Shown: positions 17,515 to 25,470 of the stretch, piece after piece | Position numbering within the stretch: the stretch's first letter is position 1 | How the letters are laid out: each line of letters begins with the position of its first letter | Assembly: GCA_002869005.1 (NCBI GenBank) | Contig: PKTU01000144.1 | Location: forward strand, 1-37,238 | Length of the DNA stretch: 37,238 bases | Direction of reading: 5' to 3' | Origin: Deltaproteobacteria bacterium | GTDB lineage: Bacteria > Desulfobacterota > Deferrisomatia > Deferrisomatales > BM512 | The notes under the pieces: generated by a model | What the model was told of the DNA's origin: nothing | What the model saw: the letters and a program-made list of their open reading frames with translations, nothing else | Databases searched by the model: none | Made by a program: the position numbers and the translations under genes

Positions 17515-18612
17515 ATGAGCAAGGATGAGAGTGTCTGGACAGAGGCTTCTCTGGAAGAATATTTAGAGAGCAGGGGAGTAAGTCGCCGGGGATTCCTCGG
17601 ATTTATGACCACTGTGGCTGCAACTTTAGCACTTCCCGTTTCATTCGCTGAAAAAGCTGCGGCAGCCGTAACCGCTGACAATCGCCCCCCGGTGGTTTGG
17701 ATGGAGTATCAGGACTGCGCGGGCGATTCCGAGTCGCTCTTACGGGCCTCCCGCCCCTCGGTTGGAGACCTGATCCTCAATTACCTCTCAGTTGACTACC
17801 ATGAGACCATCATGGCGGCCGCAGGCCATCAGGCCGAAGAGGCCCTTGAAAATACGCTGACGAAATACAAGGGTAAATACATAGCAGTCGTTGAAGGGTC
17901 CATCCCTGTGAACAAAGACGGCATCTACTGTATGGTCGGCGGGCGTACCGCGCTCTCTTCAGCGAAAGAGGTTTGTGGGAACGCTGCTGCGGTGATTGCA
18001 GTGGGTACATGCGCTGCATTTGGCGGTATCGCCGCTGGAGAGCCCAACCCCACAGGGGCTAAGGGTGTCATGGATGTAATTAAGGGTGTGCCGATTATAA
18101 ATCTCCCCGGTTGCCCGATGAACGTAGTGAATCTTACCGCGACCATAGTGCACTTCCTCACCTTTGGGACACTCCCCCCCACCGACAGATATAAGCGCCC
18201 CCTCTTCGCCTACGGCAAGCGAATTCATGACAACTGCGAGCGCCGCGCCCACTTCGATCAGGGCCAATATGTCGAGGCATGGGGAGACAGTGGGCACCGT
18301 CAGGGTTGGTGCCTCTATAAAATGGGTTGCAAGGGCCCGAGCACATTCCACAACTGTCCGACAGTGCGTTGGAACGACGGGATCTCCTGGCCCGTCCAGG
18401 CCGGGCATGGCTGCGTCGGCTGCTCGGAGCCGGGCTTCTGGGATACGATGGGCCCCTTCTATGACCGCTTGCCCGACGTTCCCGGCTTCGGCGCCGATGT
18501 GACGGCGACAAAAGTAGGCCTTGGCCTCACCGCCGCCGCCGCCGTAGGTGTAGCGGTGCATGGGGTCGCCAAGACAATGCAACTCAAAGCCTCCGGTGGC
18601 GATAAAGAATAA
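17515..18612 (+). CDS. hyaA: periplasmic [NiFe] hydrogenase small subunit with Tat signal
   Basis: This subunit carries the three Fe-S clusters that take electrons from the NiFe site. The ATG at 17515 follows AGGAGG with a 4-base spacer; an upstream in-frame ATG at 17476 is rejected. The N-terminus has the twin-arginine motif SRRGFLGF (23-30) and a hydrophobic stretch; a C-terminal membrane anchor spans about 331-356. Medial-cluster ligands (Cys281, Cys300, Cys303) and distal ligands (His238, Cys241, Cys266, Cys272) are visible. At the proximal cluster the usual CxxC is Cys68-Ala-Gly-Asp71, with Cys166 and Cys200 kept, so one Cys is replaced by Asp. Residue 171, where oxygen-tolerant 6-Cys enzymes have an extra Cys, is Gly. 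The small-large-cytochrome-protease order matches Geobacter hyaSLBP. Confidence 0.95.
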   Translation: MSKDESVWTEASLEEYLESRGVSRRGFLGFMTTVAATLALPVSFAEKAAAAVTADNRPPVVWMEYQDCAGDSESLLRASRPSVGDLILNYLSVDYHETIMAAAGHQAEEALENTLTKYKGKYIAVVEGSIPVNKDGIYCMVGGRTALSSAKEVCGNAAAVIAVGTCAAFGGIAAGEPNPTGAKGVMDVIKGVPIINLPGCPMNVVNLTATIVHFLTFGTLPPTDRYKRPLFAYGKRIHDNCERRAHFDQGQYVEAWGDSGHRQGWCLYKMGCKGPSTFHNCPTVRWNDGISWPVQAGHGCVGCSEPGFWDTMGPFYDRLPDVPGFGADVTATKVGLGLTAAAAVGVAVHGVAKTMQLKASGGDKE

Positions 18613-18652: not shown

Positions 18653-20419
18653 ATGGCTAAAAAGATTGTTGTCGATCCGTTGACCCGCATCGAAGGCCAC
18701 CTCCGCATAGAGGCGGTGGTTGAAAACGGCGTGATAAAAGACGCCTGGAGCTCTTCGACCATGTGGCGCGGTATTGAGCAGATACTTCAGGGCCGTGATC
18801 CGCGTGAGCTCTGGTACTGGACGCAGCGTTTTTGTGGTGTGTGCACCACGGTCCACTCCATTGCCTCCGTGCGCGCGGTTGAGGATGCACTTGACATCGT
18901 CCCTCCGCTTAATGCCGAGCTTATCCGGAATATCATAATCGGCATACAGGCGGTACAGGACCACGTGATCCATTTTTATCACCTCCATGCCCTGGACTGG
19001 GTGGATATCACCTCCGCCCTTGAGGCGGACCCCGCCAAGACGGCCGCCCTTGCGCAAGGCGTAGCCAAGAAGTATGCGGTTGATGTTTTGGGCAACCGCC
19101 CTTACGCGAAGAACTCCGCGCAGTATTTCGAAACGATTAAGCAGAGAGTTGCCGCATTCGTCGGCACCAAACGGCTTGGACCCTTTGCAAACGCATACTG
19201 GGGACATAAAGCGTACAAGCTCCCAGCCGAGGCGAACCTCATGGCCGTCGCCCACTACCTTGAAGCCCTAGACTGGCAGCGTGAGGTGATAAAGATTCAC
19301 GCCCTGCTCGGCTCCAAGAACCCCCACCCGCAGACCTTCCTCGTCGGCGGCATGGCGATACCAATCGATACAAACAGCCAGAACGCGATAAACGCGGATA
19401 TGTTGGCGCACATAAAAGAGCTTCTGGTCTCAGCGAAGAACTTTGTTGAACAGGTTTATATTCCGGACCTCCTCGCAGTTGCATCCTTCTACAAGGAGTG
19501 GGGCAGCTATGGCGGCGGCGGCGGAGAGTTCGATTTTATCTCCTTTGGTGATTTCCCCACGACCACCGGCCCACGCTTCCACGACAGGGGACTGTGGTTA
19601 AAACCCGGCCGCGTCACCGTTGCCGACTTCCCGACGTTGCATGAGGTTAAAGCCGAGGATATCACTGAATACGTGACGCATTCCTGGTACTCCTACAAAG
19701 AGGGCGACGATAAGGGGTTAAACCCTCTCTCCGGTGAAACAACCCAAAACTACACAGGGCCATCGCCGGGGGACGGGAAGTATGAATACCTTGATACCGA
19801 TGGCAAATACTCCTGGGTAAAGGCGCCGCGTTACATGGACCGCCCCGCAGAGGTCGGCCCCCTTGCCAGGTGCCTTGTCGCTTACGCAAACGGACAGCCT
19901 GAATATAAGAAGGTCGTTGATCTAGTGCTCGGCGACCTCAATATTCCCGCCACGGCGCTCTTTTCGACTCTCGGGCGCACTGCGGCCCGCGGCATCGAGA
20001 CGCTTATATATGCCGCCAAGAACCTTGATTGGCTTGATATGCTTATCGCAAACATCAAGACGGGAGATATCCGCATACATACAGGCGACAAGTGGAATCC
20101 ATCGACCTGGCCCAAAGAGGCGCGCGGCGTGGGCTTTCACGAAGCGCCACGCGGGATGCTCAGCCACTGGGTAAACATTCGTGATGCCAAGATCGCCAAC
20201 TTCCAGGCGGTTGTTCCCTCAACGTGGAATGCTTCCCCACGGGATGCGAAAAAGCAGCGCGGCCCCTACGAATCAGCCCTCATCGGGACACCTGTAGCGG
20301 ATCCCGAGAAGCCCATCGAGATCTTGAGGACTATCCACTCCTACGACCCTTGCCTTGCCTGCGCGGTGCATCTCTTGGACGAGGATGGTAATGAAGTTTC
20401 ACGGGTGAAGGTGCTTTAA
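18653..20419 (+). CDS. hyaB: [NiFe] hydrogenase large subunit
   Basis: This is the catalytic subunit that splits H2 at a NiFe(CN)2CO centre. The 588-residue precursor has both nickel-ligand motifs: RFCGVCTTVHS (Cys61, Cys64) and DPCLACAVH (Cys567, Cys570, His573). After His573 a 15-residue tail remains, which a specific protease removes once nickel is inserted; such a protease is encoded two genes downstream. RIEGHL (12-17) and the active-site arginine segment EAPRG are conserved. It has no signal peptide and should cross the membrane with the Tat-bearing small subunit. AAGGAG lies 9 bases before the ATG and 40 bases separate it from the small-subunit gene. The hypA-F accessory genes are not in this window. 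Confidence 0.96.
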   Translation: MAKKIVVDPLTRIEGHLRIEAVVENGVIKDAWSSSTMWRGIEQILQGRDPRELWYWTQRFCGVCTTVHSIASVRAVEDALDIVPPLNAELIRNIIIGIQAVQDHVIHFYHLHALDWVDITSALEADPAKTAALAQGVAKKYAVDVLGNRPYAKNSAQYFETIKQRVAAFVGTKRLGPFANAYWGHKAYKLPAEANLMAVAHYLEALDWQREVIKIHALLGSKNPHPQTFLVGGMAIPIDTNSQNAINADMLAHIKELLVSAKNFVEQVYIPDLLAVASFYKEWGSYGGGGGEFDFISFGDFPTTTGPRFHDRGLWLKPGRVTVADFPTLHEVKAEDITEYVTHSWYSYKEGDDKGLNPLSGETTQNYTGPSPGDGKYEYLDTDGKYSWVKAPRYMDRPAEVGPLARCLVAYANGQPEYKKVVDLVLGDLNIPATALFSTLGRTAARGIETLIYAAKNLDWLDMLIANIKTGDIRIHTGDKWNPSTWPKEARGVGFHEAPRGMLSHWVNIRDAKIANFQAVVPSTWNASPRDAKKQRGPYESALIGTPVADPEKPIEILRTIHSYDPCLACAVHLLDEDGNEVSRVKVL

Positions 20420-20434
20420 CCTAGGGAGACGACC

Positions 20435-21100
20435 ATGCAGAAAATTAAAGCGATAAAGGTTTGGGAGTTTCCGATAAGGGTGATTCACTGGACCAACTTT
20501 GTGTCGGTGGTGGGCCTCTCTATCACCGGGGCATACATACATTTCCCCTTTCTATCGACCGCAAATAATCCCGACGCATTTGTTATGGGTTACGCTAGGG
20601 CGATCCATCTTTCATTGGGATGGCTGCTAATGCTTGGAGTTATCGGCAGGGTGTTATGGGGCGTAATAGGTAACCGTTTTGCGCGTTTAAGAAACTTTCT
20701 GCCCTTTACCTATCCCGAGGGCAGGGAGAACCTGGTGGATGTGGTAAAATACTATACCTTTGCTTCTCCACGGCCTAAAGCAACCCTGGGTCACAACGCC
20801 ATGGCTAGCCTGGCCTATCTATCGATTGGCCTTATAATGGTCTTTCAAGTGGTCTCAGGCTTCGCCCTCTATTCGCAGGCGGACCCGGCGGGAACGGCCT
20901 ACTCGCTATTCGGGTGGGTATTCGGTTTCATGAACAACGGTTATCTGAGGCTCGCGCACTACTTTTCAATGTTTATTTTCGCAAGCTTTTTCATCACACA
21001 CATCTATGCGATGTGGATGTCCGATGTAGCGGAGCGTAACGGCAGCGGCGGTTCTATGTTCAATGGATATAAGTACGGTGACCCAGACTCAAAAATCTAA
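20435..21100 (+). CDS. hyaC: Ni/Fe-hydrogenase b-type cytochrome subunit
   Basis: This four-helix di-haem cytochrome anchors the hydrogenase dimer and passes electrons from the distal Fe-S cluster to the quinone pool. The 221-residue product has hydrophobic helices at about 19-38, 55-78, 122-146 and 172-194. Histidines at the expected positions are His18, His58, His120, His175 and His189, of which four would bind the haems. The gene starts 15 bases after the large subunit stop, with GGGAG upstream, and its 3' end overlaps the protease gene. Its presence supports a quinone-linked, respiratory H2-uptake role. Geobacter nomenclature would call it hyaB. Confidence 0.93.
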   Translation: MQKIKAIKVWEFPIRVIHWTNFVSVVGLSITGAYIHFPFLSTANNPDAFVMGYARAIHLSLGWLLMLGVIGRVLWGVIGNRFARLRNFLPFTYPEGRENLVDVVKYYTFASPRPKATLGHNAMASLAYLSIGLIMVFQVVSGFALYSQADPAGTAYSLFGWVFGFMNNGYLRLAHYFSMFIFASFFITHIYAMWMSDVAERNGSGGSMFNGYKYGDPDSKI

Positions 21101-22974: not shown

Positions 22975-25470
22975 TCAGTGACAGCTGGTGCAGAGGTCAT
23001 CCTCAGGGGCGGCGAATAGAGCGCCCTCGTCCGCCGAGTGGGGGGCGTGACAACCTGTGCATGCCAGCTCTCCGCCTGATACGGGGAAGGGTGTAGCCCC
23101 GCCCCACTCGGACGCGTAGGAGCCGTCAAGAGTGTGCGCGTCATGGTCCTCATGACACTCTTTACAAAGCTCGTTTACGGGTGAAGTGAGGAGGTTTGCG
23201 TTTGAAGACGCGTGGGGGAGATGACAAGTGGTGCATCCCTCGTCCAAAGCATCGTGTGTTATCGGCTTGTCGTCGGTAATATCGTCGTGGCAGTCCGTGC
23301 ATATTTCGTCAGGAGAAGCTGAGAGCATGTTCTCATTTGCCGAGCCGTGTGGGTTGTGGCATGCAGTGCAGCCCTCCTCAAGGGCGGAGTGGGCTTCGCC
23401 TTCTTCGGCCGGGTTGTCATGACACTCAAAGCACATGTCGTTGTCCGGGCTGATAAGGAGGTTGGCGTTATCGGAAGAGTGTGGGTTGTGGCATGCGGTG
23501 CAGCCCTCTTCAAGCCCGCTGTGCAGGACGGCATACTCATCTTCGGGGTTGTCATGACACTCAATGCAAAGCTCATCGCCTTTCACATTAAGGAGCTTTT
23601 CATTCTCGGAAGAGTGCGGATTATGGCAAGCGGTGCAGCCATCATCCAGAGCAGGGTGTACATGTTCCTTTTCAGTCGGGTCGTCATGGCACTCGCTGCA
23701 TACGGCGGTCATCTCATCGACGAGCAATCCGCTGCCGACTCCGGCGTGGGGGTTATGGCAAGTAGCGCAACCCTCATCAAGCGCGTCGTGGGTTACCGGC
23801 TTGTCATCGACCGGGTCATCATGGCACTCAAGGCAGAGTCTGGAACCTTCTGCTATCAGCATCTTGCTTTTTTGCCCGCCGTGAGGCTTGTGGCAGTCGG
23901 TGCAGGTCTCCGCAGCCGGGTGCAGCGTTTTACCGTCGCCCCCCTCGGGTATATCGTCGTGACACTGCCTGCAAACGCCTGGTTCTTTTAACTCCAGGTA
24001 AGCCCTGTTGGGAGACATGTGTGGGTTGTGACATACCTGGCAGCCATCATCTACTACCGGAGAGTGAGGCTCGGTGCCCGTGGTCTCAAGGTCACGTAGA
24101 ATGGAATGGCATGTTCCGCACTTTGTTGAGGTGTCGTCGATCTTCCTTGAGGTGGCGCTGCCGGCTCCGTGACAAGAGTCGCATTTTCCCTGAGTGAGAG
24201 GGAAGTGTGTCTTGGCCCGCACCAGAATATTCTCATCGGAATTATGAGCAGGGTGGCACATGAGGCAATCGTCAAGGCCCAGGGGCAGGTTGCCGTGGAT
24301 TGCGGCGATTTCAAGATCCTGCTGGAAATTATGGCACTCAAGGCACATCTCTCTCGCCCGTGAGAGATTAGTGTCGCTGTGTGGGCTATGGCAGAGTTGG
24401 CAACCCTCCTCAACGGGTGGATGCACAGTGGCGCCGTCAGTCATGCCGTCGTGGCATTCAGCGCAGCCTGCGGGAAATTCCCCATTAAGCAGTCCAGTGC
24501 CAACTGCTCTGTGAGGGTCATGGCAGAGGGTGCATTCCTCAAGCTCGTCGCCGTGACCGGCGCTAAGAACTTGTTGGTGGCAGGTTGTACAGAGTGACAT
24601 GGTAGAGTTGGCAATTAACTTGTCGCTTTCAGAGTGCGGGTCGTGGCATGTTACGCACCACGTTTTATCAAGCGCGGCACCGGGGGGATGAAATTGAGCT
24701 TCATCTACATCGTCGCCCTGTGAGTGACATTGGTGGCAGAGCTCCGGCATATACGAATAGAGGCCCTTCGGGAAGCCGGAATAGTGTGCATCGTGGCACG
24801 CCATGCACCCCCCCTCATCAAAAGCCGCGTGATTGTCCCATCCCACGTACTTTTGAGAGTGGCATTTTTTGCAGGGGCCCTCTTCGCTGCTCTCCTTGAG
24901 CATCTTTTTGCTGTCGCTTATATGTGAATCATGGCAGCTTCCGCACTTGGAGATGACGGAGCTGAAGTGCGAATCTTCCATTGGATCTGTGCTGTTTGCC
25001 GGATTTTGAGAGAAGACTACATGGCATGCCAGGCAAACATAGGGATATCCTCCGTCAGCCAACGCCCCGCCGGCTTCATGGCAATCCTGGCATTGGGATA
25101 TATCCCCCGCGTGGTGTCTTTTTGGAAAGAACCCCATAGGCAGAGGGGTAGAGCCGTCATCGAAAAAGAGCTCCAGATACTGACCAGAGATATTGAGCCT
25201 GTTTATGCCTGGGTCGAGTTCAGTTGTAAGGTTGAAAAAGCCGTCGCCGCCAACGGTTGCCTCGGCCTGGTCCACGCTTGTCGCCCGTATGTGTTGCCAG
25301 AGGATTGCTTCCCCGGGATTACCCTTGCCGATCACAGTTATAAATTCGGAGTCGAAGGCGCTCCTCGGCTTGGGAAGTAATATTTCAGCGCCAAACGTAA
25401 ATGGCGCAATGAAAAAAACAGATAGGGCAAGGCATAGGATTAACGCTGATGTCGCCCGGGGATTCAGCAT
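22975..25470 (-). CDS. 31-heme c-type cytochrome with doubled CXXCH repeats
   Basis: The 831-residue product has an export signal (about 1-28) and an Ig-like beta domain (about 30-115). It then has 31 CXXCH motifs, the first at Cys127 and the last at Cys827-His831, about one haem per 23 residues. From Cys477 on, pairs of motifs recur every 44-46 residues with the pattern GCTACHNPH ... CxECHDxP, the doubled-CXXCH family. Extra His residues (NPH, LHP, HSA) could be axial ligands. Such proteins carry electrons through the periplasm or across the outer membrane in metal- and sulfur-respiring deltaproteobacteria. The frame ends with TGA TGA directly after the last haem His. The start has only a weak AAGAG. 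Its electron partners are unknown; hydrogenase genes lie about 1.4 kb downstream on the opposite strand. Confidence 0.93.
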   Translation of the reverse strand: MLNPRATSALILCLALSVFFIAPFTFGAEILLPKPRSAFDSEFITVIGKGNPGEAILWQHIRATSVDQAEATVGGDGFFNLTTELDPGINRLNISGQYLELFFDDGSTPLPMGFFPKRHHAGDISQCQDCHEAGGALADGGYPYVCLACHVVFSQNPANSTDPMEDSHFSSVISKCGSCHDSHISDSKKMLKESSEEGPCKKCHSQKYVGWDNHAAFDEGGCMACHDAHYSGFPKGLYSYMPELCHQCHSQGDDVDEAQFHPPGAALDKTWCVTCHDPHSESDKLIANSTMSLCTTCHQQVLSAGHGDELEECTLCHDPHRAVGTGLLNGEFPAGCAECHDGMTDGATVHPPVEEGCQLCHSPHSDTNLSRAREMCLECHNFQQDLEIAAIHGNLPLGLDDCLMCHPAHNSDENILVRAKTHFPLTQGKCDSCHGAGSATSRKIDDTSTKCGTCHSILRDLETTGTEPHSPVVDDGCQVCHNPHMSPNRAYLELKEPGVCRQCHDDIPEGGDGKTLHPAAETCTDCHKPHGGQKSKMLIAEGSRLCLECHDDPVDDKPVTHDALDEGCATCHNPHAGVGSGLLVDEMTAVCSECHDDPTEKEHVHPALDDGCTACHNPHSSENEKLLNVKGDELCIECHDNPEDEYAVLHSGLEEGCTACHNPHSSDNANLLISPDNDMCFECHDNPAEEGEAHSALEEGCTACHNPHGSANENMLSASPDEICTDCHDDITDDKPITHDALDEGCTTCHLPHASSNANLLTSPVNELCKECHEDHDAHTLDGSYASEWGGATPFPVSGGELACTGCHAPHSADEGALFAAPEDDLCTSCH
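23155..24042 (-). repeat. tandem 44-46-codon haem-pair repeats inside the 31-heme cytochrome
   Basis: The first Cys of successive CxxCHxPH units falls at residues 477, 523, 568, 612, 657, 701 and 746, a regular spacing of 44-46 codons. At the DNA level near-identical blocks recur about 132 bases apart (for example from 23351 and from 23483). This suggests growth of the protein by tandem duplication of a two-haem unit. Confidence 0.8.

Follow-up and report, generated by a model that had tools for sequence, protein, structure and literature searches.

A conserved aspartate at a proximal-cluster ligand position in the small subunit of a putative group 1f [NiFe] hydrogenase

The small subunit of a [NiFe] hydrogenase encoded by a deltaproteobacterial draft genome carries an aspartate, Asp71, at a position where periplasmic enzymes of this type have the second cysteine of the proximal iron-sulfur cluster. 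Since aspartate occurs at this position in homologs from across the clade, sequence comparison identifies it as a fixed clade trait, neither a chance change nor a sequencing error. The enzyme is probably a periplasm-facing, membrane-anchored group 1f hydrogenase whose proximal [4Fe-4S] cluster is held by Cys68, Cys166, Cys200 and the carboxylate of Asp71, the aspartate being an old property of the subfamily and not an oxygen-related device specific to this genome.

The hydrogenase operon and its proximal-cluster motif

The window, by which we mean the whole stretch of 37,238 nucleotides that was analyzed, is one contig of a draft genome (2.6 Mb, 192 contigs, 92% complete) in which one such small subunit was found. 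It contains a four-gene operon on the plus strand encoding the small and large subunits of the hydrogenase, a b-type cytochrome and a maturation protease. The features considered here are the following:

17515..18612, plus strand: [NiFe] hydrogenase small subunit, 365 aa, with a Tat signal, three Fe-S clusters and a C-terminal membrane anchor
17716..17727, plus strand: proximal motif Cys68-Ala-Gly-Asp71 (CxxD replacing CxxC), corresponding in the alignment to CDGD in HofK and CSGN in Huc
18010..18012, plus strand: Cys166, conserved proximal ligand, invariant in a 45-sequence alignment
18112..18114, plus strand: Cys200, conserved proximal ligand, invariant in the same alignment
18653..20419, plus strand: [NiFe] hydrogenase large subunit, 588 aa, matching PF00374 (740 bits)
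20435..21100, plus strand: b-type cytochrome subunit of the HyaC/HyoE type, quinone-side electron partner, matching TIGR02125 (137 bits, above cut-off) and PF01292
21063..21584, plus strand: hydrogenase maturation protease of the HyaD/HybD type, matching TIGR00072 (135 bits) and PF01750

The start codon of the small-subunit gene (ATG, 17515) is preceded by an AGGAGG ribosome-binding site, and its product matched TIGR00391 with 466 bits, as well as PF14720 and PF01058, and retrieved HoxK and Hyd-1 as homologs from the PDB (E~1e-104 to 1e-100). With TIGR00391 and PF00374 scores far above cut-off, a Tat signal, and the CxxC nickel motifs near both termini of the large subunit (FCGVC and DPCLACAVH), the enzyme has the features of a group 1 [NiFe] hydrogenase. 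An earlier note made from the DNA sequence had described a Tat signal, a C-terminal anchor and a small subunit-large subunit-cytochrome b-protease gene order, all of which were confirmed (SRRGFLGF as the Tat motif; a predicted helix spanning residues 331-363). The large subunit retains His225 (KNPHP), the conserved histidine adjoining the proximal cluster, which is kept in 115/115 aligned homologs. Downstream of the operon, the minus strand of the window encodes a multihaem c-type cytochrome of 831 aa that is rich in paired CxxCH motifs (22975-25470).

Counting residues from the ATG at 17515, the codons of the proximal motif read TGC (17716-17718), GCG, GGC and GAT (17725-17727), and the replacement of a proximal cysteine by aspartate with retention of Cys166 and Cys200, on which the earlier note was built, was thus verified. 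The ligands of the distal (His238, Cys241, Cys266 and Cys272) and medial (Cys281, Cys300 and Cys303) clusters are intact. The additional cysteines of the group 1d [4Fe-3S] cluster are missing, Gly70 and Gly171 standing where HoxK and HyaA have Cys. An AlphaFold2 model of the small subunit reached a mean pLDDT of 65, with values of ~53 in residues 71-80 and below 50 across much of the cluster-binding C-terminal region; ligand geometry derived from this model was set aside on account of its low confidence at the motif. Foldseek returned the same matches as the sequence search and nothing further. A search for solved structures or spectroscopy of members of the clade returned none, the closest solved chains being ~50% identical and of the CxxC or CxCC type.

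Distribution of aspartate, cysteine and asparagine among homologs

Among 110 homologous small subunits, some of them from genomes represented twice, the aligned position is occupied by Asp in 63, Cys in 33 and Asn in 13, and one sequence is truncated. In a two-subunit tree, the large-subunit columns of which were built on the window's own large subunit, the window grouped with Deferrisomatia, Deferribacteres and Desulfuromonadia with a support of 97. The earlier note had called for a check of whether the aspartate is universal in this clade; it is nearly so, with Asp in 36 of the 37 rows and Asn in the remaining one (L091). The aspartate is thus fixed across the three lineages, as a functional residue would be. 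L091 (G153:C1:332439-333491), in which Asn stands for Asp within an otherwise Asp-only Desulfuromonadia-type clade, is a natural single-residue variant. Another genome (L115; G246:C11:25500-34800) carries on one contig two Asp-type small subunits, both accompanied by a large subunit; their starts lie ~4 kb apart, which suggests that the operon was duplicated in tandem.

A tree of the small subunit comprised 131 rows. All 49 of those surrounding Hyd-1, Hyd-2 and HoxK have Cys, and Asp and Asn are confined almost entirely to a single superclade. Outside the window's clade, the members of this superclade from Chloroflexota, Actinomycetota and Acidobacteriota alternate between Asn, Asp and Cys, and the tree requires at least eight residue changes. 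Asp and Asn codons are one base apart, and Cys and Asp codons two. Most Asp-type genes are arranged as in the window, with the small subunit-large subunit-cytochrome b-protease order found exactly at 26 Asp loci; the same order is also present in Cys lineages and hence is not exclusive to Asp. Two leads concerning a residue coupled to the aspartate were rejected. The residue following Cys200-Pro201 is Pro in most CxxC lineages and Met, Val, Leu, Ala or Cys in the 1f superclade, but it is a clade marker, common to Chloroflexota members with CxxC. The RGxE position of the large subunit was also inspected.

That Asp71 might stem from faulty sequencing or assembly, or from a gene in decay, is so improbable as to be practically negligible: although the draft genome is fragmented into 192 contigs, the aspartate is found in a 96%-identical congener and in more than 50 other homologs, which refutes an error, and the operon has kept its four genes intact.

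Operon make-up, tree neighborhood and published reports together indicate that the enzyme most likely belongs to group 1f, of the Hya-like (HyoSLE) kind. The placement beside Geobacter Hya proposed in the earlier note is supported by operon order and agrees with the tree, the neighbors in which are Desulfuromonadia and Deferribacteres, lineages whose Hya/Hyo enzymes were called 1f in PMC6896113. That study calls the group polyphyletic and little studied, and found in Deferribacter autotrophicus a group 1f HyoSLE-protease cluster of the same make-up. Asp71 also fits the group, in which the second proximal cysteine is stated to be replaced by Asp or Asn (PMC5364354). The Cys-to-Asp change at proximal position 2 was tabulated for G. 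metallireducens in 2014 (PMC4070099), and a 2016 survey (PMC5364354) reported Asp or Asn there in the group 1f enzymes of Geobacter, Frankia and Roseiflexus. Given these reports, the substitution is an ordinary, documented trait of the subfamily and not unusual within it. What is new here is the distribution over the 1f superclade of the toggling between Cys, Asp and Asn at one position.

Cluster type and the question of oxygen

Asp71 is homologous to the CxxD aspartate of HofK, the group 1h small subunit of R. eutropha, whose proximal cluster is reported to be an Asp-ligated [4Fe4S] cluster (PMC7174314; Asp ligation also in PMC5364354), which makes a role as fourth ligand the likeliest one for it. 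The three-cysteine, one-aspartate ligation put forward in the earlier note thus holds as regards homology and is plausible, the contact between Asp71 and iron being a projection from sequence. In the Alteromonas macleodii hydrogenase, ligand substitutions homologous to the natural ones left the enzyme active, Asp being the best tolerated (PMC4070099). Through its b-type cytochrome the hydrogenase would couple H2 turnover to the quinone pool by electron exchange, either in respiratory H2 uptake or in the disposal of excess electrons as H2, and the aspartate may tune the potential or the lability of the cluster adjoining the active site.

The proximal cluster may alternatively be natively [3Fe-4S], or readily interconvert between [3Fe-4S] and [4Fe-4S], the carboxylate holding the fourth iron weakly and the Asp and Asn members sharing a high-potential cluster like that of Huc. 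Asp71 could also lie close to a [3Fe-4S] cluster and bind no iron. Replacements of Asp by Asn recur in the superclade, one of them within a Desulfuromonadia-type clade (L091); Huc, which has Asn at the homologous position, harbors three [3Fe-4S] clusters (PMC10017518); and one iron of an Asp-ligated cube can be labile, which PMC4070099 mentions for Pyrococcus ferredoxin. Yet the Asp-ligated cluster of group 1h is reported as [4Fe4S], and that bound by Asp60 of the methanogen FrhG is also [4Fe4S], and the residue fixed in the window's clade is Asp, not Asn. We consider this possibility rather unlikely, if one to keep in mind, and retain a [4Fe-4S] cluster with Asp71 as its probable fourth ligand.

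Somewhat less likely still is that the aspartate is an oxygen adaptation, the enzyme working in air or defending the cell against oxidative stress like Hya of Geobacter sulfurreducens. Work cited in PMC6896113 ties that Hya to defence against oxidative stress, the same ligand occurs in group 1h, whose R. eutropha member is O2-insensitive (PMC7174314), and a heme-copper oxidase is encoded in 15/22 examined genomes carrying close homologs. The host itself encodes a bd-like protein that is divergent and carries a haem c motif. However, no heme-copper oxidase and no canonical full-length bd oxidase were found in the host (92% complete), its congener or a 100% complete member of the family, and the aspartate is kept in genomes with and without an oxidase alike. 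The supernumerary [4Fe-3S] cysteines of the O2-tolerant group 1d are absent, and a proteomics study of G. sulfurreducens, in which HyaL was highest on formate, considers that Hya may produce H2 from excess reductant (PMC7894505). FrhG, an enzyme of an anaerobe, is also Asp-ligated (PMC3930138). Because aspartate ligation occurs in a strictly anaerobic enzyme and the residue is shared across the subfamily, Asp by itself does not signal oxygen tolerance. Air-working behavior, suggested in the earlier note, is accordingly not supported by the aspartate, the enzyme being moreover distant from group 1h (118 bits), and the oxygen inference is a weak one.

The bd-like protein of the host (L152:958-2304; G000:C15) is 448 aa long and combines a half-length match to cytochrome bd subunit I (32 bits, above cut-off when scanned as protein) with a C-terminal cytochrome c domain. 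It is possibly a divergent enzyme of the bd superfamily.

We tentatively suggest, as a reading with perhaps a modest chance of being correct, that the 1f superclade represents a natural Cys/Asp/Asn series at one proximal ligand, in which the residue sets the type of cluster and, through it, both the H2 affinity and the working potential of membrane-bound hydrogenases that are otherwise alike. Were this true, four cysteines would go with a [4Fe-4S] cluster, three cysteines and Asp with a labile [4Fe-4S] cluster, and Asn with a Huc-like [3Fe-4S] cluster. The distribution is useful in that concrete predictions of the effects of Asn and Asp on the cluster follow from Huc and HofK, and its value is that of a test system, a widespread and structurally uncharacterized subfamily with natural variation at one ligand of the cluster that lies nearest the active site. 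Comparison of its members could reveal how a single ligand sets cluster type, redox potential and response to oxygen, and whether the aspartate concerns oxygen at all.

Comparison with known hydrogenases

HofK/HofG of R. eutropha (group 1h; PDB 5AA5) shares with the window enzyme a CxxD motif at the homologous position, HofK from pHG1, which is identical to chain 5AA5_A, having CDGD. It differs in that its small subunit matches that of the window with only 118 bits, no Tat signal is seen in its sequence and its operon is without an adjacent cytochrome b. HofK forms with L135 and L136 a separate, long and deep branch; the window enzyme falls outside this clade and so is not a group 1h member. 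L136 (G308), a HofK-like group 1h-type small subunit, has CDGC instead of CDGD, and Asp is thus not universal in the HofK clade. In the plasmid collection, the HofK gene (L112:4963-6018, pHG1) is labelled 'hydrogenase expression protein HypE', a misannotation.

Huc of M. smegmatis (group 2a; PDB 7UUR/7UTD) likewise has a non-Cys residue at this position, in its case Asn, CSGN being present both in Huc (7UUR) and in a relative. Each of its three clusters is of the [3Fe-4S] type (PMC10017518), and the Huc relative L147 has QCLC in place of the distal HCCC of the window. In the methanogen FrhG (group 3a), from an anaerobe, one proximal Cys is also exchanged for Asp, and cryo-EM identified this residue, Asp60, as a ligand of the proximal cluster (PMC3930138); PMC3591093 likewise supports Asp ligation of this [4Fe4S] cluster. 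The exchange, however, affects another of the four ligand positions (position 1 in M. barkeri; PMC4070099), and the N-terminal domain alone is homologous.

E. coli Hyd-1 and R. eutropha HoxK (group 1d) are the closest solved structures, with ~50% identity and the same type of cytochrome b partner. In contrast to the window enzyme, they carry CTCC and one more Cys that serves the [4Fe-3S] cluster; in the window enzyme, Gly occupies both of the additional Cys positions, and the group 1d signature is thus lacking. The closest likeness is to group 1f itself (Geobacter Hya and Deferribacter HyoSLE), where a Tat-exported, anchored small subunit, a large subunit, a HyaC-type cytochrome b and a protease are likewise encoded in one operon, and from which, in a comparison made through tree neighborhood and published papers, no difference was found.
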